DNA of 64,000 nucleotides, taken from assembly GCF_030818015.1 (NCBI RefSeq), contig NZ_JAUSZX010000001.1, positions 4,464,001 through 4,528,000 on the forward strand, given 5' to 3'. Below the pieces are notes generated by a model. It had not been told where the DNA came from. It saw only the letters and a program-made list of their open reading frames with translations, and searched no databases. Source of the stretch: Arthrobacter globiformis (GTDB lineage Bacteria; Actinomycetota; Actinomycetes; Actinomycetales; Micrococcaceae). The first letter of the stretch is position 1. The number at the start of each line of letters is the position of its first letter. Position numbers and translations under genes: made by a program. This document shows, one piece after another, positions 6,994 to 57,694 of the stretch.

Positions 6994-7018
6994 ACGACGG
7001 CGGCACGGCCGCCGTCGT
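6994..7018. terminator. Intercistronic hairpin, ACGACGGCGG family
   Basis: A perfect 10-bp stem, ACGACGGCGG at 6994-7003 and its complement at 7009-7018, with a 5-nt loop. No T-tract follows. It lies between the transporter and the KDPG aldolase gene, so it may attenuate transcription or protect the upstream message rather than end the operon. It is one of five relatives in this window. Confidence 0.7.
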
Positions 7019-7064
7019 CCACTGTCAGTCCCGCTTTACAGCACTTCCACCGCAAAGGAATCCC

Positions 7065-7751
7065 ATGCTCCGCCTCGAAAAACCCGGCACGGCGTCCCGG
7101 CCGGCACCCTCCGAGCTCCTCCGCGAGACCCGTGCTGTAGCTGTCCTCCGGGCCAGGCACGCCTCGGACTACGCGCCGGTCATCGATGCCCTGCAGCGGG
7201 GCGGCATGCTCAGCATCGAACTCACGCTCAGCACGCCCGGCGTCTGGGAGGAGCTTCCGCTACTCCGGGAGCGGTTCGGTGACTCCCTCGAGATCGGCGT
7301 CGGGACGATCACCGAAGCAGCGGACGCCGAGACGGCCCTCGACCTGGGCGCGGCCTACATCGTCACTCCCGTCACGGATCCAAGCGTCATAGAAGCGTGC
7401 GTCCGGCGCGGCGTTCCGGTCTACCCCGGCGGCATGACCCCCACCGAACTGCACACCGGCTGGAAACTGGGCGCCACCGCCGTCAAGATCTTCCCAGCCT
7501 CCACAGTCGGCGCCGGCTACGTTTCACAACTGCGCGGCCCGTTCCCGGACATCGAGGTGATCCCGTCCGGCGGCGTCAACATTGACGACGTACCGGACTG
7601 GATCAGGGCCGGCGCCCTAGCCGTCAGCCTCGGCGGCCCGCTGCTGGGTGACGCGTTCAAGGGCGGCGACCTGCAGGACCTAACGGCCAGGGCACGGCGT
7701 GTGCGCGAGCTGATCGACCAGACCGCCGAGCAACTGGGGGCTACCAAGTGA
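7065..7751 (+). CDS. eda: 2-keto-3-deoxy-6-phosphogluconate (KDPG) aldolase
   Basis: A 228-residue class I aldolase that splits KDPG into pyruvate and glyceraldehyde 3-phosphate. The catalytic glutamate is E52 (SIELTLSTPG), the Schiff-base lysine is K141 (AVKIFPAS), and the phosphate-binding IPSGGVN segment follows. ATG 7065 has AAAGGAA five bases upstream, which is why it is preferred over longer upstream frames. The stop overlaps the KDG kinase start as GTGA. Together the two genes complete the lower branch from 2-keto-3-deoxygluconate. Confidence 0.92.
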   Translation: MLRLEKPGTASRPAPSELLRETRAVAVLRARHASDYAPVIDALQRGGMLSIELTLSTPGVWEELPLLRERFGDSLEIGVGTITEAADAETALDLGAAYIVTPVTDPSVIEACVRRGVPVYPGGMTPTELHTGWKLGATAVKIFPASTVGAGYVSQLRGPFPDIEVIPSGGVNIDDVPDWIRAGALAVSLGGPLLGDAFKGGDLQDLTARARRVRELIDQTAEQLGATK

Positions 7752-8698
7752 GCCCGGCACCGTACGTCCTCACGTTCGGCGAGACCATGGCGCTGATGCG
7801 CGCCGACCAGGTCGGGCCACTCGCGCACGCCTCCACCATGAGCCTGGGCATCGGTGGCTCCGAGTCGAACGTCGCCATCGGCCTCCGCCGCCTCGGCGTG
7901 CAGGCGGTCTGGTGCGGCCGGGTCGGTGCGGATTCCTTGGGTCAGCTCGTTGAGCGCGAAATCCGCGCCGAAGGGGTGGACGTCCGCATCGCTGTCGATC
8001 CTTCCGCCCCCACCGGCCTGATGATCAAAGAACGCCGGACACCTGACGCGCAGCGTGTCAGCTACTACCGCGCGGGAAGCGCCGGGTCCCGGATTGCACC
8101 GGAGGATATCGACGACCGGCTCGTTTCCGGGGCCAGGCTGCTGCACGTCAGCGGTATCACCCCGGCGCTGTCAGCCCAGGCGGCGGAAACGTTCCGACAC
8201 GCCATCGGTGTGGCCAGGGACGCCGGCGTTCTAGTGTCCTTTGACCTGAACTTCCGCGGCAACCTCTGGTCAAGGGAGGGCGCCGGCAACGTCTACCGCG
8301 ACTTGATCCCGCTGATGGACATCGTGTTCGCAGGCGAGGACGAGGCAGCCATCGCCGTCGGCGCCGGTGAACCACAGGAGCTGGCCCGAAGAATCGCTAC
8401 CCTGGGGCCCAGCCAGGCCGTCATCAAGCTCGGCGCCGACGGTGCCCTCGCCATCGCCGACGGTGAGATGTACCATCAGGCGGCAATTGCCGTCTCGGTG
8501 GTGGACACTGTCGGCGCCGGCGACGCCTTCGTGGCCGGTTACCTAGCCGAACTCATGGAAGGCCGCGCCCCCGAGGAGCGCCTCCGTACGGCCGTCGCCA
8601 CGGGTGCTTTCGCCTGCCTGGTCCCCGGCGACTGGGAAGGCTTCCCTCGCCGCCACGAACTCGTACTCCTGGAAGCGAAGGAACCGGTCTCCCGCTAG
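7748..8698 (+). CDS. kdgK: 2-keto-3-deoxygluconate kinase (PfkB family)
   Basis: A 316-residue ribokinase/PfkB sugar kinase, predicted to phosphorylate 2-keto-3-deoxygluconate to KDPG with ATP. The N-terminal GGSESNVAIGLRRLG and the C-terminal signature DTVGAGDAFVAGY with its catalytic Asp are both present. The GTG start overlaps the aldolase stop as GTGA, and pairing with an Eda-type aldolase is the main reason for the KDG assignment over other PfkB substrates. It is the last gene of the operon, and two hairpins follow at 8708 and 8834. Confidence 0.88.
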   Translation: MSPAPYVLTFGETMALMRADQVGPLAHASTMSLGIGGSESNVAIGLRRLGVQAVWCGRVGADSLGQLVEREIRAEGVDVRIAVDPSAPTGLMIKERRTPDAQRVSYYRAGSAGSRIAPEDIDDRLVSGARLLHVSGITPALSAQAAETFRHAIGVARDAGVLVSFDLNFRGNLWSREGAGNVYRDLIPLMDIVFAGEDEAAIAVGAGEPQELARRIATLGPSQAVIKLGADGALAIADGEMYHQAAIAVSVVDTVGAGDAFVAGYLAELMEGRAPEERLRTAVATGAFACLVPGDWEGFPRRHELVLLEAKEPVSR

Positions 8699-8707
8699 CA
8701 GCGAGCT

Positions 8708-8732
8708 ACTCCAAGAGATCGTTGGAGTTTTT
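8708..8732 (+). terminator. Rho-independent terminator after kdgK
   Basis: A 7-bp stem ACTCCAA (8708-8714) and TTGGAGT (8722-8728) with a 7-nt loop, running straight into TTTTT. This is a conventional intrinsic terminator ten bases after the kdgK stop. Confidence 0.85.
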
Positions 8733-8833
8733 GTACACTTTTCGCGGCTTTAAGGGCGTTTAGCGCCGATTATCTATCCAAAAATCCCTGGACATAGATG
8801 GCACTCCGTCCGTCAGACCGTAACGAATGTGTC

Positions 8834-8863
8834 GGACGACGGCGGAACCTCCCGCCGTCGTCC
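8834..8863. terminator. Second terminator hairpin, ACGACGGCGG family
   Basis: A perfect 12-bp stem, GGACGACGGCGG (8834-8845) and its complement (8852-8863), with loop AACCTC and TTCTT after it. It lies between the convergent kdgK and DM13 genes and could stop transcription from both sides. Confidence 0.8.
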
Positions 8864-8883
8864 TTCTTGCGTTAAAGGATGGC

Positions 8884-9456
8884 TCATTTGGCAAGCTGGG
8901 CCGCTCCGAAAGAAACACTGAACTGGACGCACCACAGGTCCACGGACCTGTACTTGGCCAGGTCAACGTCCTCCGGGATCGCGTACACCTGGTTGCCCAG
9001 GTTCCCCTTAATCATGCCCAGGTCAAAGTGTGCGGCGGAACCGGCCGTGAACCATCCGGCCGTTCCCTCGACTACGTCCGCGGCGCTGAGCCAGACGTGT
9101 ACATCCGGGCCGTTGGAGGTGTCCAGGTTCTCCAGTGTCAGGACGAGTTTCCCGCCGGGTTGCTGAATAATCCGGACGATTCATGTTGTGGCGTGTTCGT
9201 GGCTGATCAGGGAGCCCTCGGCTAGCTGAATCGGAACCTCGGGCACGTTTGTGATGGTTCCGGAGGGCGGGTTCGAGCTGGCGGAGGGGGATGGCGGTGC
9301 CTGCCCCGCTGAGGTTGCGATGGTGCGCAACTGCTCATCCACCCGCACATCGACAAACAACAGCCACGGCTTGAACAGCACTAGGCCCAGCGCCAGCAGT
9401 GCGGCACCCACAGCGGCGGCGATCACCCAGCGGCGCTTGCGTTTGCGGGCCTGCAT
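8884..9456 (-). pseudogene. DM13-domain secreted/anchored protein, interrupted by one in-frame TGA
   Basis: Read from ATG 9456, the frame gives a basic N-terminus, one membrane segment (AAAVGAALLALGLVLFKPW), a Ser/Pro-rich linker and the DM13 opening ending HEHATT. A TGA then lies at 9183-9181. The same frame continues without a shift to a stop at 8884-8886 and encodes the rest of a DM13 domain (ENLDTSNGPDVHVWLS, KGNLGNQVY, and VDLWCVQFSVSFG with the conserved Cys). Whole length would be 190 residues. The TGA falls where relatives have glycine, so GGA to TGA is the simplest lesion. Either a recent nonsense mutation or a sequencing error fits. Confidence 0.82.
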
Positions 9457-9494
9457 GCTGCAAATCTACACCCGTCATCTCAGCCGGAGGTGGA

Positions 9495-12008
9495 TCAGCC
9501 GACCCGGGGCAGCGACTTCCCCGCGGACATCCCCGCGGCAGCCTGCGCGGCGGAAATCGCGGCCGGGAGCCTGGCCGGGTGGGACTTTAGCCAGGCCGGG
9601 ATCCGTTCCGCCGGCAGGGGCTTGCTCCACAGGTACCCCTGCGCCAGGCGTACGCCCAACCGGCGGAGTTCGCTGAGCTGGACGGCGGTCTCGACGCCTT
9701 CGGCCACGACATCAAGCCGCAGACTCTCCGCCATGCCCAGGACGAGTTCGATGATGGTTGCACCGTGCGGATCGGTTCCCAGCTCCTCGACGAAGGTGCG
9801 GTCGATTTTAAGCGTGCGGGCCGAGAGCCACTTGAGGTAGCTCAGTGAGGAGTATCCGGTTCCGAAGTCGTCGATGGACAGGCCCACGCCCAGGCGGGCC
9901 AGCCGCTGCAGGGTTTCCTTGGGCAGGTCCGGCTGATCCATGAGCACGGTTTCGGTGATTTCCAGGTGGACGACGGCAGGGTCGATGCCGGTGTCACGGA
10001 TGGCAGCCTCCACCACGTCGGGAAAGTCGCCTGTCACGAGCTGCCGTCCGGAGATGTTCACCGCCGCAGTGAAGTTCTGTGCCCCCGGGACCTGCGTGCG
10101 CCATTCCTGCACCTGCCGCAGTGCCTCGCGGAGCACCCATGTGCCGATCGGAAGGATCAGGCCCGTCTCCTCGGCAATGGGGATGAAGGCGTCCGGCATG
10201 ATCGGGCCGTGCTCATGGTGGTGCCATCGCAGCAGCGCCTCAAAGCCGACAGTGTCCTCCGTGGTGACGTCAATGATCGGCTGGTAGTTGAGGGAAAGCT
10301 CGTTGCGTTCCAGCGCCAGCCGCAGATCGGACTCGAGGTCCAGGCGCCCCGTGGCCCGCCCGGTCATGCGCACATCATAAATTGCTGACGAATCCCCGCC
10401 CGCTGACTTGGCCCGGTACATGGCGGCGTCCGCGCCCTGCAGCATCGACTCGGCCGTGTCCTCCCGGTCCGCGAGGGCGATGCCCACGCTGACATTGAGG
10501 TAGATCTGCCGGCCGTCCACGTCAAACGGCTGCCGGGTCGCTTCCTTGATCCGTTCAGCCAGGTCCTGGGCTCCGCACATCAGCAGGTTCTCGCAGATCA
10601 CCACGAATTCGTCGCCGCCGAACCGGCCCACGGTGTCGCCGTCCCTGACAGCGGCCTTCAGCCGCTCGCCGAGCAGCACCAGAATGGTGTCGCCGGCACC
10701 ATGGCCGATGCCATCATTGATCAGTTTGAAGCGGTCGACGTCGACGAACATCACCACGGGCCGCGCGGACCGGTCCAGGAAGCCCTGCAGGACCTCGGTG
10801 ACCATGTACCTGTTCGGCAGGCCGGTCAGTGCGTCGTGGCGCGCCTGCCACTCCAGGATCTGTTCCGCGTTCTTCCGATCGGTGATGTCCAGGACGGTGT
10901 CCAGGAACCGCACAGGCTTGCCGTCTGCGCTGTTCATGCTCCGGATCCGTGAGTGCAGCCACCGCTGTTCGCCGGTGGGCCGGATGATCCGGTATTCAAA
11001 GTCGGCGAATCCGAGGCCGTTGTCCAGGCTCTGCCAGACTTGGCGGACGCGCTCCCGGTCCTCGGGGTGCGTGCGCGCGAGGATGGCTTCGCGGTCTTTG
11101 CGGTCCCCGGCGGACATTCCCAGGATCCGGTCGAATTCCTCCGAGTGCCATGTCTCCGCCGTGGCAACCGTGTGTTCGACGCTTCCCACGTGGGCCATCT
11201 CTTGGGCAGCCAGGAGCCGCTCGCGCTCCGCCTCAGCGGCGGCCTTGAGCCGCTGGATCTCCGTGATGTCCCTGGCAATGGCGGACGCCCCCACCCGTAC
11301 ACCGTCTTGGTCGTAGACGGGAGACACGGTCAGTTCGACGTCGATCACCGACCCGTCCTTGCAGCGCCACCGGGCCTCCACACCGGTAACGAACGCCCCA
11401 CTCCCCGTGCCGGCGGTGACTTCCGTGCCGAAGTACTCCCCGTCGTCGGCCGTCAGCAGCCCGTGACTTTGCCCCACAGCTTCCCAGGAGCTCCAGCCGA
11501 GCATCCTCGCCGCCCCGGCATTCCAACTAGTGATCTTCCCGGCGAGGTCAGCACCGATGATGGCATCGCCGGAGGACTCGACCATGGCCGAGAGCCTGCG
11601 CAGGATGGCCTCGGTGTGCTTTCGGTCGGTGATGTCCTTCGAAATCGCCACGACCGCCACGGGTACGGTGTGCCGGCCCCTGATCCGGCTGACGGTCGCG
11701 TGGACGGGAAATTCCCGGCCGGTGCTGTGGCGCACCCATAGTTCGCCGGCCCAGTCCCCGCCGCCCGCGAGTCTGTGCGCTATTTCCCTGTTGGTGGCAC
11801 CCTCGCCCCGCGCCTCGGCGCCGCCTACAATTCCCAAATCCGTGATCTTGCGGCCCAGAGCCTTGTCCGGGCCAAACCCGTACAAACGCTCCGACGCGCG
11901 GTTCCAGTACGTGATGCGCCAGTCGCCGTCCATGCCGATCACCGATTGGCCGATCTCGTCCAGCAGCAGCGACTGCATCACCAAATCGTCGCGATGTTCC
12001 CCAGCCAT
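9495..12008 (-). CDS. PAS-PAS-PAS-GGDEF-EAL cyclic-di-GMP turnover protein
   Basis: An 837-residue cytoplasmic signalling protein with no obvious membrane segment. Three PAS/PAC sensor units cover roughly residues 10-130, 135-255 and 270-385. A diguanylate cyclase domain follows with an intact GGDEF (464-468) and an RxxD inhibitory site (R455-D458). The EAL phosphodiesterase domain has EAL at 590-592 plus the later NISGRQL, EITETVLM, DDFGTGYSSLSYL and AEGVET motifs. Both catalytic domains therefore look competent, and the PAS units probably choose the direction. It is transcribed alone, and no cofactor ligand for the PAS units can be read. Confidence 0.93.
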   Translation of the reverse strand: MAGEHRDDLVMQSLLLDEIGQSVIGMDGDWRITYWNRASERLYGFGPDKALGRKITDLGIVGGAEARGEGATNREIAHRLAGGGDWAGELWVRHSTGREFPVHATVSRIRGRHTVPVAVVAISKDITDRKHTEAILRRLSAMVESSGDAIIGADLAGKITSWNAGAARMLGWSSWEAVGQSHGLLTADDGEYFGTEVTAGTGSGAFVTGVEARWRCKDGSVIDVELTVSPVYDQDGVRVGASAIARDITEIQRLKAAAEAERERLLAAQEMAHVGSVEHTVATAETWHSEEFDRILGMSAGDRKDREAILARTHPEDRERVRQVWQSLDNGLGFADFEYRIIRPTGEQRWLHSRIRSMNSADGKPVRFLDTVLDITDRKNAEQILEWQARHDALTGLPNRYMVTEVLQGFLDRSARPVVMFVDVDRFKLINDGIGHGAGDTILVLLGERLKAAVRDGDTVGRFGGDEFVVICENLLMCGAQDLAERIKEATRQPFDVDGRQIYLNVSVGIALADREDTAESMLQGADAAMYRAKSAGGDSSAIYDVRMTGRATGRLDLESDLRLALERNELSLNYQPIIDVTTEDTVGFEALLRWHHHEHGPIMPDAFIPIAEETGLILPIGTWVLREALRQVQEWRTQVPGAQNFTAAVNISGRQLVTGDFPDVVEAAIRDTGIDPAVVHLEITETVLMDQPDLPKETLQRLARLGVGLSIDDFGTGYSSLSYLKWLSARTLKIDRTFVEELGTDPHGATIIELVLGMAESLRLDVVAEGVETAVQLSELRRLGVRLAQGYLWSKPLPAERIPAWLKSHPARLPAAISAAQAAAGMSAGKSLPRVG

Positions 12009-12122
12009 AACCCCTCCGACAGGTGCTCCCCCGATGGCAACGCGCTACGCACTCGGACCCGTTTGCTTAAGGAGCCGTGCTGGCAGTAAATCAGCAGCCT
12101 GAGTTTCCTGCAAGAGTGTCGG

Positions 12123-12761
12123 CTACGTGGCGGCTTCCGCTTCCGCGAGCCGGATCATGCGAAGCTCATCCCGCACCGCACGGGAAGGCCAATGGTCACC
12201 GGCCAATTCCCTGATCCGGGCGGGACCGGCCCCCGGGAAAAGCTTGTCCATCAGCCCCGCCGCGTGCAGCAGGCCAATCAGCGCGGCGGTTCTGGCGTCC
12301 GACGGCGATCCGCTGAGTATGCTTTCGATCCTCGCCAGAAGTGCCGCCTCCGGAGCGTGGTCCTTCTCCGGGTAGCGTGTGGTCCTGAAGACGCCAAGAT
12401 GCTTTTCGCCCACACGGGTCACGACGCCGAGAGCCGCCATCCCCTCATAGACGCGGTGCAGTTCGGCGCGGCTTTCCAGCATGGCAACCCACCGCCGCGG
12501 GCTGTGCGGCCGGGACTTGTCGTGGATCAGCTCCCACTGGTGCTGGAAGTCAGATTGCGGAGGCGCTCCGGTGGCCCTGACGTATTTCCCCTGCAGCTGG
12601 ATTGCGCCCAGCAGGTCCAGCTCGGCCAGGATTGCGCCGGACAGGGCCGCCTTGAGCACGCTCTGCGGCACCTCCGGCTCGCCGTCCTTGTCATTCGTCG
12701 CCAGAAGAAGGAACGCCTGCGGCAGGTTCAGCTCCGCTGCGCCGGGTATTTCGGTGCTCAT
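12123..12761 (-). CDS. GPP34/GOLPH3-like phosphoprotein family protein
   Basis: A 212-residue soluble, mostly helical protein of the family related to eukaryotic GOLPH3/Vps74, which is common in actinobacteria and of unclear bacterial function. Family signs are the NLPQAFLLLATNDKDG opening, the LKAALSGAILAELDLLGAI helix and a C-terminal RIRELAGDHWPSRAVRDELR segment. ATG 12761 is chosen because a GGGGG element lies just upstream and the protein begins where the family begins. The longer frame upstream has no family similarity. It is divergent from the RpiR regulator. Confidence 0.8.
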   Translation of the reverse strand: MSTEIPGAAELNLPQAFLLLATNDKDGEPEVPQSVLKAALSGAILAELDLLGAIQLQGKYVRATGAPPQSDFQHQWELIHDKSRPHSPRRWVAMLESRAELHRVYEGMAALGVVTRVGEKHLGVFRTTRYPEKDHAPEAALLARIESILSGSPSDARTAALIGLLHAAGLMDKLFPGAGPARIRELAGDHWPSRAVRDELRMIRLAEAEAAT

Positions 12762-12853
12762 ACCCCCATGGTGGCGCGGACCGGCCACCGCTGCAATGGA
12801 CGAGCAGAGCGGATCAGAGGCCGGTTCCCCAAAAGCACTTTTCGCAAACGAAA

Positions 12854-12887
12854 TTGCAGAGTACATTTATTGCAATCAGTCTTGCAA
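12854..12887 (+). promoter_or_regulatory. TTGCA-repeat region upstream of the RpiR gene
   Basis: Three TTGCA cores at 12854, 12870 and 12882 in the AT-rich gap between the divergent GPP34 and RpiR genes. Such spaced repeats suit a regulator binding site, most simply autoregulation by the RpiR protein. This is inference from position and repetition. Confidence 0.4.
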
Positions 12888-12951
12888 GGTGATCTGAGTT
12901 ACAGATCCCGTGCGCACGCCACAATTTCCTGTCCAGAGAAAGAGGCCTGAC

Positions 12952-13845
12952 TTGAACGCCAACACCGCCGGCCTGGAAGCCAGCACAGGAACCGGCGCGG
13001 GCCCCGCCTCCCATGCATGGCTCGGCGACGCGCTTCCGGACGTTCCGCTGTCCAAGGCCCAAAGCCGCGTGGTCGACGTCATTGCGCGCAACCCGCAGCT
13101 TTCCTCATATGCAGACATCGCGGAGATCGCCCAGCGGGCCGACGTCAACAATTCGACAGTGGTCCGCGCGGCCCAGCACCTGGGCTACCGGGGCTGGCCG
13201 GACCTCCAGCGGGAACTGCGGTCCCGCTACCTGGTGACGATCTCCACCGAGGACACCCTGACCGAGCACGGGGAGCACCGCAGTCCCCTGCATGACGCGC
13301 TCAACCACGACATCGAGAACCTGCGCCTGACCCTGGACTCCAATACGGCCGACGACGCCGAAGCGGCCATCGCCACCATGGCGGCGGCCAAGTCCATCAT
13401 CGTTCTGGGGCTGGGCTCGTTCGCCGGCCCCGCCACCGTGATGGCCCATCTGGGCTCGACCATGGGATACCCCATCACCCTCGAGAACCGCGGCGCGGTC
13501 CACCTCGCCTCCAGTGCCAACGCCTTGGGGCCCGGGGATGTCCTGGTGGTCATCAACATGTGGCGCTCGATGCGGCAGATCATCGTCACCGCCGAAGCCG
13601 CGAAACAGGCGGGCGCCAAGGTCATCGCCATCAGCGATATGCGCCGCGGCCGCCTGGCGGCCGTCGCCGACCACCTCCTGGTGGTGGCATCGGAGGGCAT
13701 CTCCTTCTTCCAGTCCGTCACCGCCGCAAACTCACTGGTCTACGGCCTCCTCGCGGGCATGGAGGCCGCGCACCCCGAGCGCAGCCGTGCAGCCATCCGC
13801 CGCACCCAACAGCTGTGGAAAGACCTCGACATCTACCTCGACTGA
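12952..13845 (+). CDS. MurR/RpiR-family transcriptional regulator
   Basis: A 297-residue regulator with an N-terminal RpiR helix-turn-helix (SYADIAEIAQRADVNNSTVVRA, about residues 47-70) and a C-terminal SIS sugar-isomerase fold (IIVLGLGSFAGPATVMAHLG). SIS domains of this family usually bind phosphosugars, but members also govern other catabolic operons. TTG 12952 is favoured over GTG 12910 because AAAGAGG lies six bases upstream. It leads the dehydrogenase, aldehyde dehydrogenase, M20 and DUF3100 genes on the same strand and is their likely regulator. Confidence 0.85.
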   Translation: MNANTAGLEASTGTGAGPASHAWLGDALPDVPLSKAQSRVVDVIARNPQLSSYADIAEIAQRADVNNSTVVRAAQHLGYRGWPDLQRELRSRYLVTISTEDTLTEHGEHRSPLHDALNHDIENLRLTLDSNTADDAEAAIATMAAAKSIIVLGLGSFAGPATVMAHLGSTMGYPITLENRGAVHLASSANALGPGDVLVVINMWRSMRQIIVTAEAAKQAGAKVIAISDMRRGRLAAVADHLLVVASEGISFFQSVTAANSLVYGLLAGMEAAHPERSRAAIRRTQQLWKDLDIYLD

Positions 13846-13896
13846 CCTGCAGCTCCCTCAACTGCACCCCACATACCTTCGTCCAGGAGCACATTC

Positions 13897-14820
13897 ATGA
13901 ACACCAGCACCGAACACCGCATCGCCGTCATCGGCCTCGGCTCCATGGGCGGAGCGATGGCAGCCACGCTCCACAACGCCGGCTGGGCGGTCACCGGCTT
14001 CGACCCCTCGGAGGCAGCACGGACCGCCGCGTCCCACGCCGGCATCGCCACCACCGCCAGCGTCGAAGATCTCGCCGGCACCCCCTATGCGGTGCTCTCG
14101 CTGCCCGCGGCCAGCGTCGTCGAGTCCACGGTGCCGCAGCTCCTGGCGTCACCGGGAACCGTCGCGATCATTGACACCACCACCTCCGAACCGGCAACGA
14201 GCAAGCGGATGGCCGAACTCGCCGAAGCGCAAGGCGGAGCGTTCGTCGATGCCCCCGTCTCCGGCGGCCGCGACGGCGCATCCACCGGAACGTTGAGCGC
14301 CTTCGTCGGGGCAACCGATGCGGCCCTTGCCGCCGCCGAACCCGTCCTGCTGGCACTCACCGGCGGCAAGTACAACCACGTCGGCGGACCCGGCAGCGGC
14401 AACGTCGTCAAGCTCCTCAACAACGTCCTGGCCGCGGCCAACCTGGTCTCGGTCGGCGAGGCACTGGGTATCGCCAAGGCCTACGGCATCGATCCGGCCA
14501 AGGCGGCGGCAAGCATCAGCGAAGCCTCCGGAGGCAGCAAAGTCTCCGCGAACATGTATCCCAACTGGGTGCTCTCCGGAACCCACGATTCCGGTTTTTC
14601 GCTGGGGCTCATGGCACGCGACGCCGCACTCGCCGTCGACGTCGCCGCCCGGATCGGCGAAAACCCGGCGCTGCTGGCCGCCGTCGCCGGCCAATGGCAG
14701 GAAGCGCTGGCCGCCCTCGGACCGCGCGCGGATTTCACCGAGATCGCGCGGACCGTCGCCCCGGCCATCACCCCGGCCGGCGCCCCCGGCACTACAAACG
14801 ACACCACCGCGGTCGTCTGA
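13897..14820 (+). CDS. NAD(P)-dependent 3-hydroxyacid dehydrogenase (HIBADH/GarR family)
   Basis: A 307-residue beta-hydroxyacid dehydrogenase of the 3-hydroxyisobutyrate/tartronate-semialdehyde reductase family. The N-terminal IGLGSMGGAMA is the nucleotide-binding motif, DAPVSGG near residue 125 is the substrate-binding signature, and GNVVKLLNN carries the catalytic lysine. CAGGAG stands before the ATG. It oxidises a hydroxyacid to a semialdehyde or the reverse, and the aldehyde dehydrogenase immediately downstream would take the semialdehyde on. The true substrate is unknown. Confidence 0.87.
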   Translation: MNTSTEHRIAVIGLGSMGGAMAATLHNAGWAVTGFDPSEAARTAASHAGIATTASVEDLAGTPYAVLSLPAASVVESTVPQLLASPGTVAIIDTTTSEPATSKRMAELAEAQGGAFVDAPVSGGRDGASTGTLSAFVGATDAALAAAEPVLLALTGGKYNHVGGPGSGNVVKLLNNVLAAANLVSVGEALGIAKAYGIDPAKAAASISEASGGSKVSANMYPNWVLSGTHDSGFSLGLMARDAALAVDVAARIGENPALLAAVAGQWQEALAALGPRADFTEIARTVAPAITPAGAPGTTNDTTAVV

Positions 14821-16418: not shown

Positions 16419-16431
16419 GGCAGGCGCGCTT

Positions 16432-49882: not shown

Positions 49883-49933
49883 ACGGCATCCTAACGCCGG
49901 ATGGTTTTCAGTGGTAGAGCCTCGGTCTCAGGC

Positions 49934-50191
49934 CTAGCTGGAGGACGGACGCGCCGGCGGCTTCGACTCGGAGTGCCGCCTGGCAAGCTTGAATCCACGC
50001 TTGCGGGCCAGAACAGCGCGCTTTGGGACGTGGTTCTTGTGGCTCTGGCGCTCCTTCATTCGCAGCGCCTTCCGCTGCTGCCTCATAGCCTGCCGCTCAT
50101 CCCGATTGATTCTCGAAAGCAGCAGCACCGGAACAATGAGCCAAAGCAGCGCCACCGCAAACACCAACGCGATTGACACCAGCGGTTCCAT
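49934..50191 (-). CDS. Small membrane protein with basic tail
   Basis: An 85-residue protein. One membrane segment (LVSIALVFAVALLWLIVPVLLL) is followed by a strongly basic, coiled-coil-prone stretch (RINRDERQAMRQQRKALRMKERQSHK) and a Ser/Pro tail. The topology would place the tail in the cytoplasm. No family recognised. The composition is coding-like and distinct from chance frames. Confidence 0.6.
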   Translation of the reverse strand: MEPLVSIALVFAVALLWLIVPVLLLSRINRDERQAMRQQRKALRMKERQSHKNHVPKRAVLARKRGFKLARRHSESKPPARPSSS

Positions 50192-50243
50192 GGACCAAGT
50201 TTATTGAGCTCCGCGGGAAATGATAAGCACCCTTATGAAGTCG

Positions 50244-50648
50244 TTATGAAACGACGGGGTCCAGGTGCGCGTTCTTAACCTCCCGGGGCGTTGCGCCCTG
50301 GATGACCCAGCGGTTGCCGTCCGGGTCGCTGAGGAAGGCGAACAGCACGCCGCCCATGTCCTGGATCTCGCTGATGCCGGCTCCACGCTCCTGCAACTCC
50401 GCGCGGACGGCGTCAATGTCGGGCACCACGAGCTGCAGACCCTCCAGGCTCCCCGGTGGCATGCTGGTCATGCCCGTGCCGATGACGATCGAAGCAGCAG
50501 AACCGGGCGGCGTCAGCTGCACCACCCTCATGCCGGGGATGTGCTCCACGTCGTGGTCCAGGACGAAGCCCAGCTTCTCCACGTAGAACGACTTGGCGGC
50601 GTCCACGTCGGCCACCGGCACTTGCACAACTTCAAGGCGCATCTCCAT
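50244..50648 (-). CDS. VOC-family (glyoxalase/bleomycin-resistance type) protein
   Basis: A 134-residue VOC protein with VPVADVDAAKSFYVEKLGF at the start and FAFLSDPDGNRWVIQ at the end, the paired beta-alpha-beta-beta-beta units of the fold. Both usual metal-ligand regions are recognisable, but the ligand set is not certain. ATG 50648 follows a GGGTGGGG stretch. GTG 50657 or ATG 50642 remain possible. It may detoxify or modify a small molecule, and the sequence does not say which. Confidence 0.82.
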   Translation of the reverse strand: MEMRLEVVQVPVADVDAAKSFYVEKLGFVLDHDVEHIPGMRVVQLTPPGSAASIVIGTGMTSMPPGSLEGLQLVVPDIDAVRAELQERGAGISEIQDMGGVLFAFLSDPDGNRWVIQGATPREVKNAHLDPVVS

Positions 50649-50688
50649 GCGCCCCACCCTACCGCCCCGGCCCGCGCAAAACGCCGGC

Positions 50689-51573
50689 TCAGCCCGCCAG
50701 GACCTGCCTGATCCCGAACTCCCCCACGGAGAACATCCGCGGATTGTCGTCGGAGTTGCTCAGCATTGCGGTGGACAGGACGAGTGCCCAGCCACGGGCT
50801 CGCGTCCAGGTGTCCCCGTCCACTGAGGCGCCAAAGGCGCCGATGAAGCGCTGGCGGGCGCCGGCGTCGAACATTAACCATCCCACCGCAAGATCAACGG
50901 CGGGATCCCCGGCCCCCACATCGCCGAAGTCGATCACGCCGGCGAGGGACCCGTCGGCCCCCAAAAGAATGTTGGCTGGATGCAGGTCCCCGTGGAGCAT
51001 CATCGCCGGACCAGCCCATACGTCAGCGGCACAGGCCTCTACCCACAGCGCTCCCAACTTCGCCGTCTGTGGGTAGCGCTCCCGGTCCCCGAGCCTTTCC
51101 CGAACCGCCGCGTCGCGGTCAACCAGCGGCACCCCGCGGACGGGATTCACCGGGACTCCTGCATCCGCGGGCACATGGATGGAAGCTAGAAAGGCAGCGA
51201 GGCCTTCAGCGGCCGGCCCGCGGTCCGCGGGCCGCGCGTCGACCGCCGGTGCGCCGGGAATCCACCGCACGATGCTCCAGGGCCAGGGAAAGTCCGACGC
51301 CGGCTGCCCGGCATGGACGGGGACGGGCACCGGAACCGGGGACCGGCTGGCGATACCGGGAAGATGCTGCTGCTCATGCAGGATCAGCGGCACGGCTTCG
51401 GCCCGGCGCGGCAGTCGGACCGCCAGATCGCTACCGAGCCGGAAGGTCGCGTTGTCCCAGCCATTGGCCACCCGCACCAGGGAGCGGGCGGCAAGGTCCG
51501 GGCGCTGGTCCCGGATGAGGGCATGGACGACGGCGTCACTCACCTCAATGGTGGCCGGCGGCATCTGTGCCAT
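50689..51573 (-). CDS. Aminoglycoside-phosphotransferase-fold kinase
   Basis: A 294-residue APH-family protein. The catalytic loop is LHGDLHPANILLG (HxDxxxxN) near residue 195 and the metal-binding DFGDVGAGDPAVDLA follows. The N-terminus has WDNATFRLGSDLAVRLPRR, which carries the ATP-site lysine equivalent region. It phosphorylates a small molecule, not necessarily an antibiotic. Chromosomal relatives often act on sugars or metabolites. Confidence 0.85.
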   Translation of the reverse strand: MAQMPPATIEVSDAVVHALIRDQRPDLAARSLVRVANGWDNATFRLGSDLAVRLPRRAEAVPLILHEQQHLPGIASRSPVPVPVPVHAGQPASDFPWPWSIVRWIPGAPAVDARPADRGPAAEGLAAFLASIHVPADAGVPVNPVRGVPLVDRDAAVRERLGDRERYPQTAKLGALWVEACAADVWAGPAMMLHGDLHPANILLGADGSLAGVIDFGDVGAGDPAVDLAVGWLMFDAGARQRFIGAFGASVDGDTWTRARGWALVLSTAMLSNSDDNPRMFSVGEFGIRQVLAG

Positions 51574-51590
51574 TCAGAGACCCGCTTTCC

Positions 51591-51791
51591 TCAGTAGACG
51601 GCGCCATCCAGCAGTTCAGCGAGCCGGTTGGCAGCGCGCCGCAGTTCGGGGACACCCGCCTTCAGCCCCTCCTCGGCCCGCTCAGCCGGCACATGAAAAC
51701 CACAGGCAGCTGGGACGCTTTCGTCACGATCAAGCCGCTGAACATCACGGGAGCCACGGGTTCCCCGGCCAACGCGACGGCAGTGACCTAG
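51591..51791. other. Patch of two gene fragments
   Basis: Minus-strand 51690-51591 reads in coding style (RAEEGLKAGVPELRRAANRL, ending DGAVY-stop). Plus-strand 51692-51791 reads MKTTGSWDAFVTIKPLNITG then a short tail and stop, which recalls the TGSWD segment of carbohydrate-binding module family 6. Neither has the rest of a gene. The patch lies between two real minus-strand genes and looks like recombination debris. Confidence 0.45.
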
Positions 51792-52147
51792 GGCAGCTCC
51801 GCGCGCCTCTGGCGGCGCCAAAGGGAGATCCACAGGAGTTCAGCCGCAGCATCCAGCAGGTACATCCTGCTGAGGGTGCCGTTCCCCACGTAGATGAAAT
51901 CGGCGGCAGCGAGCGTTGCAGCAGTGCCAATGCCGAGCTGCCTGGCGTGTTGTACGTCCCCGGGGCTGCTGCCGGCCCGAAGCTGGGCCAGTCCGTTGGT
52001 CAGAAGAAGACCCCCTACCGTCCGGACCAGCCATTTGTCGGTCTTCGGCCCGAAGACAGCCTCAAAGCTGGGCATATGAACAAGCGGCCAAAGGCCGTTC
52101 ACCACCAGAAACGCTCCCTGCAGACGTCCAATCGCAACAGCAGACAT
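51788..52147 (-). CDS. Small multi-span membrane protein
   Basis: A 119-residue protein with about four hydrophobic segments (GAFLVVNGLWPLVHM, VGGLLLTNGLAQL, IGTAATLAAADFIYV and LLDAAAELLWISLW). The conserved-looking EAVFGPKTDKWLVRTVG in the first loop is polar. It resembles a DoxX-like small membrane family in size only. I do not recognise it. It borders the fragment patch at 51591-51791. Confidence 0.65.
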   Translation of the reverse strand: MSAVAIGRLQGAFLVVNGLWPLVHMPSFEAVFGPKTDKWLVRTVGGLLLTNGLAQLRAGSSPGDVQHARQLGIGTAATLAAADFIYVGNGTLSRMYLLDAAAELLWISLWRRQRRAELP

Positions 52148-52231
52148 CGAAGCTCCTTCGAATGATCAGCCCGGCAAGTCCTTACTACTGCGCCGAATGC
52201 CTCAGCCGGGCGGGGACGGGTCAGCCTGAAC

Positions 52232-52260
52232 TTGTAACGCAGCTCACATTCCCCTATCGT
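52232..52260 (+). promoter_or_regulatory. Promoter upstream of the 109-residue gene
   Basis: TTGTAA (52232-52237) and TATCGT (52255-52260) with a 17-base spacer. A GGGCCAC/GTGGCCC hairpin lies in the leader between it and the gene. Confidence 0.6.
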
Positions 52261-52310
52261 AGTCGGGGGCCACAGCGTGGTGGCCCTTTCTAAATTGGGG
52301 AGACAACTTA

Positions 52311-52640
52311 GTGAATGAGAAGCTGCGGGTGCTGGTCAGCGTTGACCTCGACGGCGCCAAAGCCCAGGTCAAGACGCAGGGTCATGTGACTGTCCAGAGC
52401 ATTCAGGGCCTGTACGACGTCATGAAGCGCACCGACTCGCTGGTCCCGGGGCTGGCACTGGAACTGGATATGACCCTTGCCAGTGTGGAACCCCAGGCGA
52501 TGGAGGAGCTCCGCGGCTGCGCCCGCTCCCACCACCTTCCGCTGCAGGTCGATCCGCTCCAGCGCGACTACCGGTTCAGCATTCTGGCGCCGACGCTTGT
52601 AGCTCTCCCGCGCGCCGCACCTGTGCTGGCAGCCGCCTGA
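52311..52640 (+). CDS. Hypothetical STAS-like small protein
   Basis: A 109-residue protein of alternating strands and helices (LRVLVSVDLDGAKAQVKTQG, then VQSIQGLYDVMKRTDSLV, then LALELDMTLASVEP). The order and the V-x-G-x-V-T turn recall anti-sigma-antagonist STAS proteins, but the phosphorylated Ser motif is not obvious. GTG 52311 follows GGGGAG at ten bases. Its stop is two bases from that of the convergent VWA gene. Function unknown. Confidence 0.6.
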   Translation: MNEKLRVLVSVDLDGAKAQVKTQGHVTVQSIQGLYDVMKRTDSLVPGLALELDMTLASVEPQAMEELRGCARSHHLPLQVDPLQRDYRFSILAPTLVALPRAAPVLAAA

Positions 52641-52642
52641 CC

Positions 52643-54649
52643 TCAAATCCCGGCGGCCCAGTCGTCATCGTAATAGCGGCCGCGGAAGTGGGCGCGAAGG
52701 TACTCCCCCACAACGGCGGCGCCGAGGTCCCCGGTGTCGGGTGCCACCACCCGGCCGTCGATCCGGCGGGCCAGCCGCCTCACGAACCGTTCAAGCCCCG
52801 GGTCATCGCCGAGCCTGAAGAACGTGGCCTGCGTGCCGGCACGCGCCAGCCGGTCCAGCTCAGCGACCGTGACGCGGATGGTCTCCGGGTCCGGCGGCCA
52901 GCAGAACCACGACTCGCCATCGGCCAGCAGGTGGGCGGTGGGCTCGCCGTCGGTCACCACGAGCAGGACAGGCTGCATCGACGGGTGCTGGCGGAAGAAT
53001 CGTCCGGCCAGCAGCAGACCGTGGTGCAGGTTGGTTCCCTGTTCCCGCAGGGCCGGCAGGGCCGTGAGCTCGCCGATGTCCATGGACTGCGCATAACGCC
53101 CGAACGTGACCAGCTGCAGCCGGTCGCCGCGGAACCGGGTCGAGACGAGGTGGTGCAGGGCGAGCGCCGTGCGTTTCATCGGCACCCACCGCCCCTCTGC
53201 CGCCATCGAGAATGACACGTCGGCAAGGAGGACGACGGCGGCCTGGGTCCGGGCCTCCGTCTCCGTCACCTCGATATCGCCGACGGCGAGGTGCAGTCCC
53301 CGGCCCGGATCACCGCCCTCGGCCATGGTGCGCCGGATGGCGTTGGTCATGGTGCGGGTGACGTCCCACGGCTCGGCGTCCCCGAACTCCCACTGCCGGC
53401 TGGAGCCGGTCTGCTCGCCCGCCGCCCCGGCGACGCGTGTGTCCCGCCCGCCCTGCCGGCCGGACAGTTGCTTGGCGGTGTCCCGCAGCAGCGATTTCCC
53501 GAGCCGCCGCATGGCCTGGGGTGACAGCCTGAGGTCACCGTCGGCCCCGCGCCGCAGGTAGCCGCCGTCCTGCATGGCCCGCTCGATCTCTGCGAGGGTG
53601 CGGGCCGTCACGGCGGCGTTCTGCCCGAGCTGGCGGGCCAGGGCATCCAGGTCCAGGTCGTCGAGGGTGGACCCGTTGTAGTGCTGGGAGAGCTGTTCGG
53701 ACAGCTCGTCGAGCTCCGCGATGTCCTGCAGCACGCCGGTGCCATCGCCCAAGCCAAGTCCTTCCTGGCCCCCGAAGCGCTCGGAGCCGTTCCAGTCCTC
53801 GCCGGGGCGCAGCGCGCGCAGGCTGTCGTCGAGCTGATTGAGCTGGGCCATGAGTTCGGCCGAGCCGAACGCCTGGGCGGATAGCCGCATCAGCTCCTCG
53901 CGCTGTTCGGCGGACATCGATTGCAGGAGCCGCTGGGCTGCGGCCGCGCGCTTGGCGAGGGCGTCCACCAGTTCCTCGACGGACTGCGGATTCTCCGGGA
54001 AGAAGCCACCGTGCTTGGCCATGAACTCGCGGAAATCCGCGTCGGTATCCTCGCCGCGTCGGTGCTTGCCGAGCAGTTCGTTGAGGTCGCGCAGCATCTC
54101 GCTGACGGCTTCGCGGTCTTCGTCGGTTGCGTTTTCGAGCGCCTGCTTCATACCGGCAAACCGCTGGTCAAGGACTTCACGGCCCAGCAGGTCCTTGATC
54201 CTGTCATAGGCTTCCCGGGCGCTGCTCGACTGCCAGTCGTAGGAGGCCAGTTCGTTGACCGCCGCCGCCGTGGATTGGGGCAGGTTCTGCAGCTGCATCT
54301 CGCGGAAGGCGCGCTCGGTGTTGTCCATCATGGCGTCGCGGGCGAGCTGCTTGCGCTCTTCCAGCACCGCGGCGTCGAGCAGCTTCTTGACCTCGTTGAG
54401 GGTGCCGTCCAGCCGGTGCCGGCCCAGCAGTTCACTCCGTCGCTGCTGGACGCGCCGGGCCAGGTTGTCGAGCCCTTCGCGGTCCCGGCCGCCGCGCCGC
54501 AGGAACTCCTGCAGGGCGTGCCGGGGTGAGTAGCCTGCCATGACGTCTTCGGCGATCGCGTCAAGCGCCTCTGCCAGGTCCAGCGGCGGGGCAAGCGGGT
54601 CCGGACCACCGGCGTACCGGCCGTACCTGGACCGGTTGTGCAGGGTCAT
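52643..54649 (-). CDS. VWA-domain (CoxE-like) partner of a MoxR-type ATPase
   Basis: A protein of 668 residues. A long helical, charged N-terminal region of about 460 residues is followed by a C-terminal von Willebrand A domain whose metal site is DVSFS (about residues 477-481) with TNLHHGLLLA and VTDGEPTAH as the other loops. Its gene follows the AAA ATPase gene by 30 bases. Such pairs insert metal ions or remodel target complexes. The target is not visible here. ATG 54649 gives better spacing from GGAGG than the ATG one codon earlier. Confidence 0.88.
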   Translation of the reverse strand: MTLHNRSRYGRYAGGPDPLAPPLDLAEALDAIAEDVMAGYSPRHALQEFLRRGGRDREGLDNLARRVQQRRSELLGRHRLDGTLNEVKKLLDAAVLEERKQLARDAMMDNTERAFREMQLQNLPQSTAAAVNELASYDWQSSSAREAYDRIKDLLGREVLDQRFAGMKQALENATDEDREAVSEMLRDLNELLGKHRRGEDTDADFREFMAKHGGFFPENPQSVEELVDALAKRAAAAQRLLQSMSAEQREELMRLSAQAFGSAELMAQLNQLDDSLRALRPGEDWNGSERFGGQEGLGLGDGTGVLQDIAELDELSEQLSQHYNGSTLDDLDLDALARQLGQNAAVTARTLAEIERAMQDGGYLRRGADGDLRLSPQAMRRLGKSLLRDTAKQLSGRQGGRDTRVAGAAGEQTGSSRQWEFGDAEPWDVTRTMTNAIRRTMAEGGDPGRGLHLAVGDIEVTETEARTQAAVVLLADVSFSMAAEGRWVPMKRTALALHHLVSTRFRGDRLQLVTFGRYAQSMDIGELTALPALREQGTNLHHGLLLAGRFFRQHPSMQPVLLVVTDGEPTAHLLADGESWFCWPPDPETIRVTVAELDRLARAGTQATFFRLGDDPGLERFVRRLARRIDGRVVAPDTGDLGAAVVGEYLRAHFRGRYYDDDWAAGI

Positions 54650-54679
54650 CATGCCTCCTGTACCGAGCAGAAACTGTGC

Positions 54680-56068
54680 CTAGCCGTACACCGTTTCCTC
54701 GTCGTCGGACTCCTTGGAGATCCGCCGGGCGAGGTAGAGGCCCTCCAGCGCAAGTTCGACGGCGGCGGCGCGCTGACCGTCGTTTTTCGCGCCCAGGCGC
54801 TCACCGATTTTGTCGTAGAGGCTTGATCCGTTGAGGGACGGAAGGTTCTCGAGGAACTCCCGCGCCGTGACCTGGTCCCCGGTGGTCACGGTGGTGTGGC
54901 CGTCGAGGGCGGCCACGAGCGGGCCCATGTCGAGGCCCTGGAAGTGTGCCCGGACGGCTTCTGCTGTGGCCGTGCGCAGCAGGTGGTCCAGGACCCCCTG
55001 CTCGCGCCCTTCCTCACCCGACTCAAACTCGATCTTTCCCGTGAGGACCTCCACCGCGGTCTCCAGGTCGATGATGCGGGCCACGGCCGGGTCCTCCCCG
55101 CGCACGCTGGCCCGGCGCAGGGCAGCCGCGGCGACGGTTTCGGCACCGGCGATGGCGAACCGTGCGGACACCCCGGAGGTCTGGTTGATGGCCGGCGACT
55201 GCCGCAGGGCCCGGGTGTAGCGGGCCAGGATCTCGAGGATGACTGGCGGGACGTCGGCCACCAGCTTCCCCTCCTGCCGGATGACGGAGACCTCGTCATC
55301 CAGCTCGATCGGGTAGTGGGTGCGGATCTCGGCGCCGAAGCGGTCCTTCAGGGGCGTGATGATCCGGCCGCGGTTGGTGTAGTCCTCCGGGTTGGCGGAC
55401 GCGACGACGAGCACGTCGAGCGGCAGCCGCAGCACGTAGCCGCGGATCTGGATGTCGCGTTCCTCCATCACGTTGAGCATCGACACTTGGATCCGCTCGG
55501 CGAGGTCCGGCAGCTCGTTGATGGCGATGATGCCGCGGTTTGAGCGCGGGACGAGGCCGTAATGGATGGTTTCGGGGTCCCCGAGCCGGCGGCCTTCGGC
55601 CACGCGCATCGGGTCGACGTCCCCGATGAGGTCGGCGACGGAGGTGTCCGGCGTCGCAAGCTTTTCGACGTACCGTTCCGAGCGGTGGCGCCATGCCACC
55701 CGCATCCGGTCCCCCTCGGTGAGGGCACGGGCACGGGACTGCTCGGTGATCGGTTCGTACGGGTGCTCGTTGAGTTCCGACTCCTCGATCACCGGCGACC
55801 ACTCGTCCAGCAGCCCGGCCAAGGTGCGGAGCAGCCGGGTCTTGCCCTGCCCGCGTTCGCCGAGCAGGACGACGTCGTGGCCGGCGATCAGGGCACGCTC
55901 AAGCTGCGGCAGGACGGTCCGGCTGAATCCGAACAACCCGGGCCACGGATCGCGCCGGGCGGCGAGCGCCGCGATCAGGTTGTCGCGGATCTCGTGGCGC
56001 AGGTCCTTGTGGACATGGCCGGCTGCACGCAGTTCGCCAACGGTGAAGATATCGGGACGATCACTCAC
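54680..56068 (-). CDS. AAA+ ATPase of the MoxR/magnesium-chelatase (BchI) type
   Basis: A 462-residue AAA+ ATPase. Walker A is LLGERGQGKTRLL near residue 70, a Walker B-type IIAINELPDL follows, then the sensor-1 segment VVASANPEDYTNRGRI and a helical lid. It likely forms a ring that acts on or through the VWA partner downstream. GTG 56068 with AGAGGGG just before it gives the natural N-terminus (VSDRPDIFTVGELRAAGH). The AAA-then-VWA order is standard for this pair. Confidence 0.9.
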   Translation of the reverse strand: MSDRPDIFTVGELRAAGHVHKDLRHEIRDNLIAALAARRDPWPGLFGFSRTVLPQLERALIAGHDVVLLGERGQGKTRLLRTLAGLLDEWSPVIEESELNEHPYEPITEQSRARALTEGDRMRVAWRHRSERYVEKLATPDTSVADLIGDVDPMRVAEGRRLGDPETIHYGLVPRSNRGIIAINELPDLAERIQVSMLNVMEERDIQIRGYVLRLPLDVLVVASANPEDYTNRGRIITPLKDRFGAEIRTHYPIELDDEVSVIRQEGKLVADVPPVILEILARYTRALRQSPAINQTSGVSARFAIAGAETVAAAALRRASVRGEDPAVARIIDLETAVEVLTGKIEFESGEEGREQGVLDHLLRTATAEAVRAHFQGLDMGPLVAALDGHTTVTTGDQVTAREFLENLPSLNGSSLYDKIGERLGAKNDGQRAAAVELALEGLYLARRISKESDDEETVYG

Positions 56069-56185
56069 CCCTCTACCGTAGTCCTCGACGGTGCGCTGAA
56101 TCGAGCACTTTCCTCCGATTCCCGCACCGCGGCTCCCCCTTCCCTCGCAAGCTCGGGCGGGGCCCCTGCCGCTACGCTTATTGCT

Positions 56186-56854
56186 GTGACTGCAGCAACG
56201 CCGCCGGCGCCGTCCGCACCGCCGTCGAAACCGGAGAGCACGCTCCTCCTTCTGGTGCGCCACGGGGAGACGCCCACCACGGGCATGGTGCTGCCGGGAC
56301 GGGCACCGGGACTGCACCTGTCCGACCGTGGCCGGGCCCAGGCCGAGCGGGTGGCGGAACGGCTGGCGGGCCTGCCGGTCGACGCTGTCTACTCTTCCCC
56401 GCTGGAGCGAACGTGCGAGACGGCGGAGCCCACGGCAACGAGCACAGGACTTGAGGTGCGGGAGGAGGCCGGCCTGATCGAATGCGACTTCGGTGAGTGG
56501 ACCGGCGTCGCACTCTCCGAACTGGCCGGCCTGCCGGAATGGCAGACCGTGCAGCGCAACCCGGCGGCCTTCCGCTTTCCCAACGGCGAGAGCTTCACGC
56601 AGATGCAGGCGCGGATCGTCGGAGCGCTCGAGGTGCTAGGCACGGTGCACGCCGGGGGCGTCGTCGTCTGCTTTTCCCATGCCGACCCGATCAAGGCGGC
56701 CGTCGCCCACGCCCTGGGCACGCACCTGGACCTCTTCCAGAGGATCGTCATCAGCCCGGGGTCGGTCTCGGCCATCTCCTATTCGGACGGTCAGGATCCC
56801 TCCGTGCTCATGGTGAATTCGACGTCGGAACCGCTGAGCGGGCTGCGGGCGTGA
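56186..56854 (+). CDS. Histidine phosphatase family protein (MSMEG_4193 type)
   Basis: A 222-residue phosphoglycerate-mutase-fold phosphatase. The phospho-histidine motif is LVRHGET, with later ECDFGEWTG and the second catalytic histidine in CFSHADPIKA. Actinobacterial members of this type usually neighbour an SCO1664-type kinase, as here. GTG 56186 is the chosen start and the frame extends further upstream without similarity. The physiological substrate is not known. Confidence 0.85.
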   Translation: MTAATPPAPSAPPSKPESTLLLLVRHGETPTTGMVLPGRAPGLHLSDRGRAQAERVAERLAGLPVDAVYSSPLERTCETAEPTATSTGLEVREEAGLIECDFGEWTGVALSELAGLPEWQTVQRNPAAFRFPNGESFTQMQARIVGALEVLGTVHAGGVVVCFSHADPIKAAVAHALGTHLDLFQRIVISPGSVSAISYSDGQDPSVLMVNSTSEPLSGLRA

Positions 56855-56872
56855 AGGTCAAGGTGCCGTGAC

Positions 56873-57586
56873 ATGAGACAGCCGGTGTCCGGACGGGAAC
56901 TGGCCCTCCTCGCCGAGGGCCAGGTTGAGCTGCTCGGGCGCATCCCGCGCAGCAGCAACGAGACGTTCCTGGTGGAGGTCTCCTCTGGGGACGACTCTTC
57001 TTATGCCGTGTATAAGCCGGAGGCCGGAGAGCGCCCGCTGTCCGACTTCGAGCCCGGGCTGTACCGGCGGGAGCGCGCGGCATACCTGCTCAGCGAGTCC
57101 TTGGGCTGGGGAATCGTGCCGACGACGGTGATCCGCGAGGAGGCGCCGTTGGGGATCGGTTCGCTGCAGTGGTTCATCGACTGCGACTTCAGCGAGCATT
57201 ACTTCACCCTGTACGCTGACGTCCCGGAGACGCACCGCGACCTGGCGCGGATCGCCCTGTTCGATTACGTCGCCAACAACACGGACCGCAAGAGCGGGCA
57301 CGTGCTGCACGGTGACGACGGGCGGGTGTGGGGCATCGACCACGGGCTGTGCTTCTCGGCAATCTTCAAACTGCGCACCGTGATCTGGGACTTCGCGGGT
57401 GAACCCATCCCGGAGGCCCTGCTCGACGACATCGCTCCGCTCGCCGACGCCGTGCCCGCCGACGTGGCCGAACTCCTCGACGGTTCGGAGGTCACCGCCC
57501 TACAGCGGCGGGTGCGGCGCCTGCTGCACGAACCGGTGCTGCCGGTGGACCGCACCGGCATGCGTTACCCGTGGCCGCTGGTGTAG
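56873..57586 (+). CDS. SCO1664-family protein (PI3/PI4-kinase-like fold)
   Basis: A 237-residue protein of the actinobacterial SCO1664 family. The N-terminal SNETFLVEVSSGDDSSYAVYKP is the nucleotide loop with its lysine. IALFDYVANNTDRKSGHVL and IDHGLCFS are the HxN/D-type catalytic and metal segments of phosphatidylinositol-kinase-like enzymes. The substrate is unknown. It starts 18 bases after the phosphatase stop. A DUF3090 gene, which I recall as the usual third member of this set, is not seen. Confidence 0.84.
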   Translation: MRQPVSGRELALLAEGQVELLGRIPRSSNETFLVEVSSGDDSSYAVYKPEAGERPLSDFEPGLYRRERAAYLLSESLGWGIVPTTVIREEAPLGIGSLQWFIDCDFSEHYFTLYADVPETHRDLARIALFDYVANNTDRKSGHVLHGDDGRVWGIDHGLCFSAIFKLRTVIWDFAGEPIPEALLDDIAPLADAVPADVAELLDGSEVTALQRRVRRLLHEPVLPVDRTGMRYPWPLV

Positions 57587-57596
57587 CTGACTTCTT

Positions 57597-57656
57597 AGCG
57601 CGAACGGACACTTGTGGCCCCTGCAGTGGCGGCCACAAGTGTTCGTCCGTTGCGCT
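57597..57656. repeat. Composite intergenic hairpin with ACACTTGTGGCC arms
   Basis: ACACTTGTGGCC (57608-57619) and its complement (57631-57642) form a 12-bp stem. After a 3-base bulge AACGGA pairs with TCCGTT, and AGCGC pairs with GCGCT outermost. The total span is about 60 bases. This looks like a mobile intergenic repeat or complex terminator. Confidence 0.65.
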
Positions 57657-57668
57657 TAAGGGAAGCGG

Positions 57669-57694
57669 ACGACGGCGGGACGTCCCGCCGTCGT
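57669..57694. terminator. 26-bp perfect palindrome, ACGACGGCGG family
   Basis: ACGACGGCGGGAC and its exact complement with no spacer. It lies twelve bases after the composite hairpin and before the MFS gene. No T-tract follows. Confidence 0.78.

Follow-up and report, generated by a model that had tools for sequence, protein, structure and literature searches.

Gene-end hairpins normally share no sequence with one another. We analysed a window of 64,000 nucleotides from Arthrobacter globiformis (positions 4464001-4528000 of contig C1, 4.94 Mb, in a genome of 5.09 Mb), where intergenic hairpins built on one palindrome crowd behind genes, and compare them here with the closest described systems. 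Intrinsic (Rho-independent) bidirectional terminators resemble them as strong GC-rich hairpins located 10-60 bp downstream of stop codons, in many cases where two genes converge; the present hairpins differ in that their U-rich tail is weak, the same stem letters are reused and only one region is occupied. DNA uptake sequences, in which a short word and its complement also form hairpins behind genes, lie across the whole chromosome, whereas the present hairpins crowd into one region. In Neisseria and Pasteurellaceae, where uptake words are paired into terminators, a genome has about 1,000 or more of them (PMC1852404). Repetitive extragenic palindromes (REP) and bacterial interspersed mosaic elements (BIME) are likewise short intergenic palindromes in many copies; in contrast to them, the family described here is regional and its genome has no match to a Y1 transposase. 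For the REPs of E. coli, no clustering is reported in PMC12306157. Integron attC cassette sites, too, are palindromes placed 3' of genes where gene content changes; here, however, the blocks are whole operons and the spacer and outer parts of the site vary. The integron idea was set aside: a search of the A. globiformis genome with TIGR02249 (integron integrase) matched 6 places, all below the cut-off, as were all 14 controls. Finally, a palindrome confined to one chromosomal region is known from matS and parS and recurs here, but with 3'-end placement, a variable spacer and stem covariation, and neither at dnaA nor opposite it.

The strict regional confinement of the palindrome and its association with rearrangement are new. 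A preliminary description of the window, made from its sequence, had overlooked three features: the restriction to one chromosomal region, the restriction to nearly one genus, and the frequent position at indel breakpoints. Judging from sequence comparison, there is about an even chance that we are dealing with one genus-typical family of bidirectional terminator-like palindromes, multiplied in one changeable region through gene-block exchange. As a stop-signal-like sequence kept by dozens of species and crowded into one plastic region, it would link transcript ends to genome plasticity and provide a testable model of catabolic operon exchange with insulation retained. The copies may also offer natural terminators, probably bidirectional ones, for use in these soil bacteria. 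No description of the element was found in the literature searched, which covers only part of published work; the arm letters, used as a query, gave no match on bacterial gene ends in the text excerpts returned, which probably concern primers and similar sequences.

Five hairpins of the window and their family

The preliminary description had listed five intergenic hairpins sharing the arm ACGACGGCGG and its complement. On re-reading the sequence all five are present, and their placement is roughly as claimed: 40909 lies between convergent genes, 8834 and 19124 are 3' of genes, 57669 separates co-directional genes and 6994 is within an apparent operon.

6994..7018, no strand: hairpin of another subtype, with a GTGCACGACGGCGGC arm and a 3-base loop, in an apparent operon, following a transporter gene and preceding the next gene
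8834..8863, no strand: family hairpin 3' of a gene, at the right border of a 9.3-kb block absent from the relative G002
19124..19163, no strand: family hairpin in its fullest form, 54 bp past the DUF3100 gene, retained 3' of the ortholog in the relatives G002, G020 and G006
40909..40935, no strand: family hairpin occupying the 57-bp gap between two convergent genes
57669..57694, no strand: family hairpin between two co-directional genes
1..57694, no strand: the window's share of a 103-kb cluster (genome 4419054-4521694), whose remainder lies to the left of the window

The RNA of each of the five stretches folds better than 200 of 200 dinucleotide-preserving shuffles (z from -4.25 to -7.34). 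The hairpins had also been judged not to be five independent ones. For four of them this stands, because they are members of one repeated, terminator-like cassette with many other copies. The fifth, 6994-7018, is a different subtype with an inner C for G and an outer GTGC for CGG. This hairpin, flanked by two co-directional genes resembling one operon, travels with that operon: it also occurs 3' of the same transporter gene in four relatives among the loci fetched. Allowing up to 2 mismatches, 5 of 30 such loci, the window's own included, carry a hairpin, always of the 6994 subtype, within a view that extends only ~1.5 kb past the match and leaves the borders mostly outside.

The four remaining hairpins belong to one palindrome family, with the half-site consensus aAgaAGCGG|ACGACGGCGGG (from the 144 half-sites that 72 copies provide in six genomes), whose constant core is partly a product of the search, which allowed up to 2 mismatches and 2-7 bases between the arms. 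The palindromic unit measures ~40-46 bases, and the spacer between the arms is variable. In its fullest form, at 19124-19163, a perfect 19-bp stem sits within a 25-base arm that is 96% complementary. Outer stem positions pair more often than column composition predicts, for instance 53 vs 38.4 and 44 vs 30.6 times among 70 intergenic copies, in counts that ignore shared ancestry; the covariation fades past ten bases. Orthologous copies show compensating stem changes round an unchanged core, such as AAGCGG/CCGCTT and GAACGG/CCGTTC. The ten bases past the stem hold on average 3.52 U at 79 gene ends, compared with 2.86 behind 58 other hairpins and 2.05 at 428 random places, and at only 22 of the 79 gene ends do they hold at least 5.

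In the six genomes, 63 of the 72 copies are found in called gene gaps; nine fall outside, some of them through doubtful gene calls. The gap copies comprise 29 convergent, 27 co-directional and 7 divergent cases, where gap lengths alone predict ~10.5 convergent and 18.6 divergent. A gene ends upstream of 56 of the 63, at 10-60 bp past its stop codon in 47 of these 56. Together, placement counts and RNA folds give a stable hairpin shortly downstream of genes, as expected of a terminator. With the placement, stem covariation and weak U-rich tail observed, an RNA hairpin would form directly past the stop codon of one gene, or of both at convergent genes, and would probably end the transcript, from either direction, or protect it.

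Confinement to one region and nearly one genus

The preliminary description expected further copies beyond chance, and they are plentiful in the same genome and in related ones. The pattern ACGACGGCGGN{0,10}CCGCCGTCGT occurs at 23 places in the 5.09 Mb of the genome and its reversed control at none. Ten of the 23 core copies lie within 102,641 bp (4419054-4521694), for a Poisson expectation of 0.46 (P ~8e-11), a density 37 times that of the rest of the genome. If up to 2 of the 22 arm bases may differ, the cluster counts 13 copies, including one within a gene and one, 6994, of the other subtype; the nearest copy to the left of the window is at genome position 4463577, 398 bases outside. Outside the cluster there are 13 core copies. 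Of the 11 inspected, 8 are intergenic and 3 are called within genes, although one of the latter, at 4249767, is intergenic under another gene call.

In a check that presupposes no motif, the intergenic hairpins of a 1.25-Mb sample formed 978 pairs separated by under 200 kb. Of these pairs, 58 share at least 8 arm bases, and 51 of those are this palindrome family. In the 1.25 Mb sampled, regional arm sharing is not a general habit of the genome: other gene-end hairpins rarely share arms, and no other hairpin family is regionally shared to a comparable degree. Within the same 1.25 Mb the word ACGACGGCGG has 173 copies, 143 of them not in hairpins, and ranks first of 2,520 words of the same composition. 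Genes hold 127 copies, against 35.6 after synonymous shuffling and a Markov expectation of 148, with 73-129 for the one-mismatch neighbours. The word is over-represented, genes included, but its one-mismatch neighbours are nearly as frequent; these counts do not support a reading as DNA uptake sequence, which may nevertheless hold.

Among the 80 matches listed in a scan of contigs with the arm pattern, 62 are from Arthrobacter, Pseudarthrobacter or Paenarthrobacter, 13 from Sinomonas, 1 from Micrococcaceae and 4 from other families. Of 150 genomes of the same genus, 88 have the strict form ACGACGGCGGGANNTCCCGCCGTCGT, with up to 18 copies each, and 62 have none. A draw across the family yielded it in 17 of 24 genomes of the genus and, outside the genus, in 1 of 271; the control gave 0 in both searches. 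Clustering recurs as well. With ACGACGGCGGGN{2,6}CCCGCCGTCGT, 16 of 21 copies lie in 114 kb in G020, 6 of 7 in 75 kb in G021, 4 of 9 in 59 kb in G011 and 4 of 9 in 45 kb in G006. Strict-form clusters, among the matches listed, comprise 13 of 13 copies in 138 kb in G158, 11 of 11 in 118 kb in G073 and 10 of 10 in 96 kb in G115. Further clusters, again among the matches listed, hold 7 of 7 copies in G112, 9 of 12 on one contig in G130 and 17 of 18 in 162 kb in G056.

We used metH and dnaA as landmarks. Sought in 28 genomes, metH was found in 23, of which 19 have it placed on one contig with the cluster; no match at 1e-100 was obtained in G135, G147, G103, G108 and G110. The cluster is at most 200 kb from metH in 16 of the 19 genomes and ~300 kb away in G006, G011 and G430. 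In these three the distance to dnaA is nevertheless maintained, which weakens the idea of a tie to metH itself. Measured from dnaA, the cluster lies 0.48-0.76 Mb away in 8 genomes, each time on the same side; in G110 it is 0.41-0.71 Mb away, on the opposite side. The palindrome is confined to one chromosomal region, as expected of a domain site. As a separate observation, metH of one genome (G156:C1:4894480-4898126) comes in two overlapping pieces with one internal stop, either a broken gene or a sequencing error.

Turnover, indels and rival explanations

Under the reading of a terminator-like family multiplied through gene-block exchange, the palindrome, confined to one changeable region ~0.4-0.76 Mb from dnaA, may multiply and persist in it because copies are exchanged whenever gene blocks enter, leave or change places within that region. 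Any two copies are short mutual repeats in both orientations; recombination between them could therefore remove or join whole operons and leave a working stop signal behind, with the palindromes as occasional joints of block exchange. Compared by position between genomes, the copies give a divided result: in 105 ortholog comparisons, with both directions counted, the hairpin is retained in 58, 40 of them beside a different neighbour, and missing in 47. The 40909 gap is present in G002 as 2.6 kb and has no family hairpin there, and next to the 57669 site stands a 12.4-kb block in G002 and a 10.0-kb block in G155. The 9.3-kb block of the A. globiformis genome (G000), absent in G002, is flanked by two near-identical hairpins, and G443, G458 and G155 also carry the block with hairpins at both sides. 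With block and hairpins present in these three and neither in G002, gain and loss are both possible. At another place, G000, G002 and G458 have a hairpin on each side of one gene, G155 has the left hairpin only, and in G443 the gene is gone; a single hybrid hairpin is left there, and the alignment blocks share 32 bases on it. The last case is one directly seen hairpin-to-hairpin deletion.

Ten pairs drawn from five close species contain 101 indels of at least 300 bp. A breakpoint falls in 33 of 48 family gaps, compared with 5 of 22 gaps with another hairpin (p 0.0006) and 73 of 271 hairpin-free gaps, in counts that share events between genome pairs, are not controlled for gap length and leave the size of the effect uncertain. 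This limit is one of several points that weigh against multiplication through block exchange. Genome by genome, the link in 3'-end gaps is uneven (p 0.017, 0.12, 0.0036, 0.70 and 0.0068). Over six more distant genomes, adjacency is broken at 109 of 126 family hairpins and 67 of 89 others (p 0.047); the excess is marginal only, and the idea of special breakpoints was not kept for these genomes. In G002 the 9.3-kb block is missing together with its hairpins, an outcome that simple deletion from hairpin to hairpin would not produce. Several large regional indels, such as 4440030-4447666 and 4483865-4500879, have no family hairpin at their ends. Finally, the 47 absences are seldom compensated: only 6 of 28 de-duplicated orthologs without the family hairpin have another strong hairpin (93 of 364 among control genes), and in two of the six the substitute is still the family palindrome, altered in its core on one arm and correspondingly on the other. 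Such frequent absence without a substitute means that the hairpin is not indispensable as a terminator.

The strongest rival, which we consider somewhat unlikely, is that these are ordinary terminators only, their sequence shared through old local amplification, at operon ends that tolerate insertions, and the palindrome has no role in recombination. Gene-end placement is what it predicts, and the six distant genomes suit it too, since adjacency is often broken at other hairpins (the 67 of 89 above) and convergent gaps are broken alike (16 of 18 with another hairpin, 50 of 60 with the family). It accounts poorly for the difference in breakpoints between family and other-hairpin gaps of close species, for the hybrid hairpin of G443, and for the lack, across 1.25 Mb, of any other hairpin family with regional sharing of this degree.

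Beyond the block-exchange reading itself lies a broader and more doubtful proposal. Identical palindromic stop signals might serve as recombination joints for a region-wide exchange of modules, in which operons are added, removed or swapped while the neighbours' transcription is undisturbed, perhaps aided by a factor acting on the palindrome and holding it within the region.

It is quite improbable that the palindrome is a transposable element, similar to REPs or miniature inverted-repeat transposable elements (MITE), that inserts behind genes and whose insertion or retention is limited to one region. Presence and absence at orthologous gaps and a unit of ~40-46 bases would fit such an element, but its restriction to one region would not, and the junctions inspected show no consistent target duplication. 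The REP-associated Y1 transposase (PF01797) had 0 matches in the A. globiformis genome, while the control matched in 5 of 14 genomes, and the REP-transposase idea was set aside for this genome. No copies were present in the viral contigs, phage records or plasmid records searched, and carriage on phages or plasmids was dropped as well.

Little probability also attaches to a binding site, like matS or parS, whose protein would mark or organise a single chromosomal domain. The restriction of one palindrome to one region and its rather steady distance from dnaA, even in G006, G011 and G430 with metH ~300 kb off, speak for it, but placement at gene ends and seldom between divergent genes, a varying arm spacer, outer stem pairs that co-vary instead of keeping one sequence, and copies that appear and disappear between close species speak against it.

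Surrounding genes and neighbouring repeats

A Pfam scan of twenty proteins encoded in the region gave transporters, a PfkB kinase, an arabinofuranosidase-like enzyme, an aldehyde dehydrogenase, regulators, metH and others. Relatives have strongly different gene content in the region, with some backbone genes in common; the labels "plastic" and "catabolic" rest on these samples of proteins and relatives, all from the region itself. The following genes of the window, except the tRNA-Cys gene, accompany the hairpins, the protein labels being from Pfam.

5568..6965, + strand: MFS / sugar transporter gene, upstream of hairpin 6994
7748..8698, + strand: PfkB-type sugar kinase gene, upstream of hairpin 8834
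17643..19070, + strand: DUF3100 gene, upstream of hairpin 19124
37619-37690: tRNA-Cys gene
40946..42484, - strand: alpha-L-arabinofuranosidase-like gene, 3' end toward hairpin 40909

Directly left of hairpin 57669, at 57595-57657, lies a member of a second family of intergenic palindromes, built on AGCGCGAACGGACACTTGTGGCC with its complement. This family is scattered in the genome sample of A. globiformis, present in G443, G458 and G155, and nearly absent in the stretches of G020, G021, G011 and G006. When 697 intergenic gaps were grouped by repeats, the largest group, of 21 gaps, united the main family with this second one.

A third intergenic repeat, with the ends GGAGTTTTTGTCC and GGACAAAAACTCC, lies left of both hairpins bordering the 9.3-kb block. 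We had considered this stretch as a scar of an upstream gene and dropped the idea, as it is another intergenic repeat. Its sites are the left flanks of genome 4463577 and 4472836 (window 8836), and it is also present in G458 and G155; a similar repeat joins the gaps at 616273 and 4215065.

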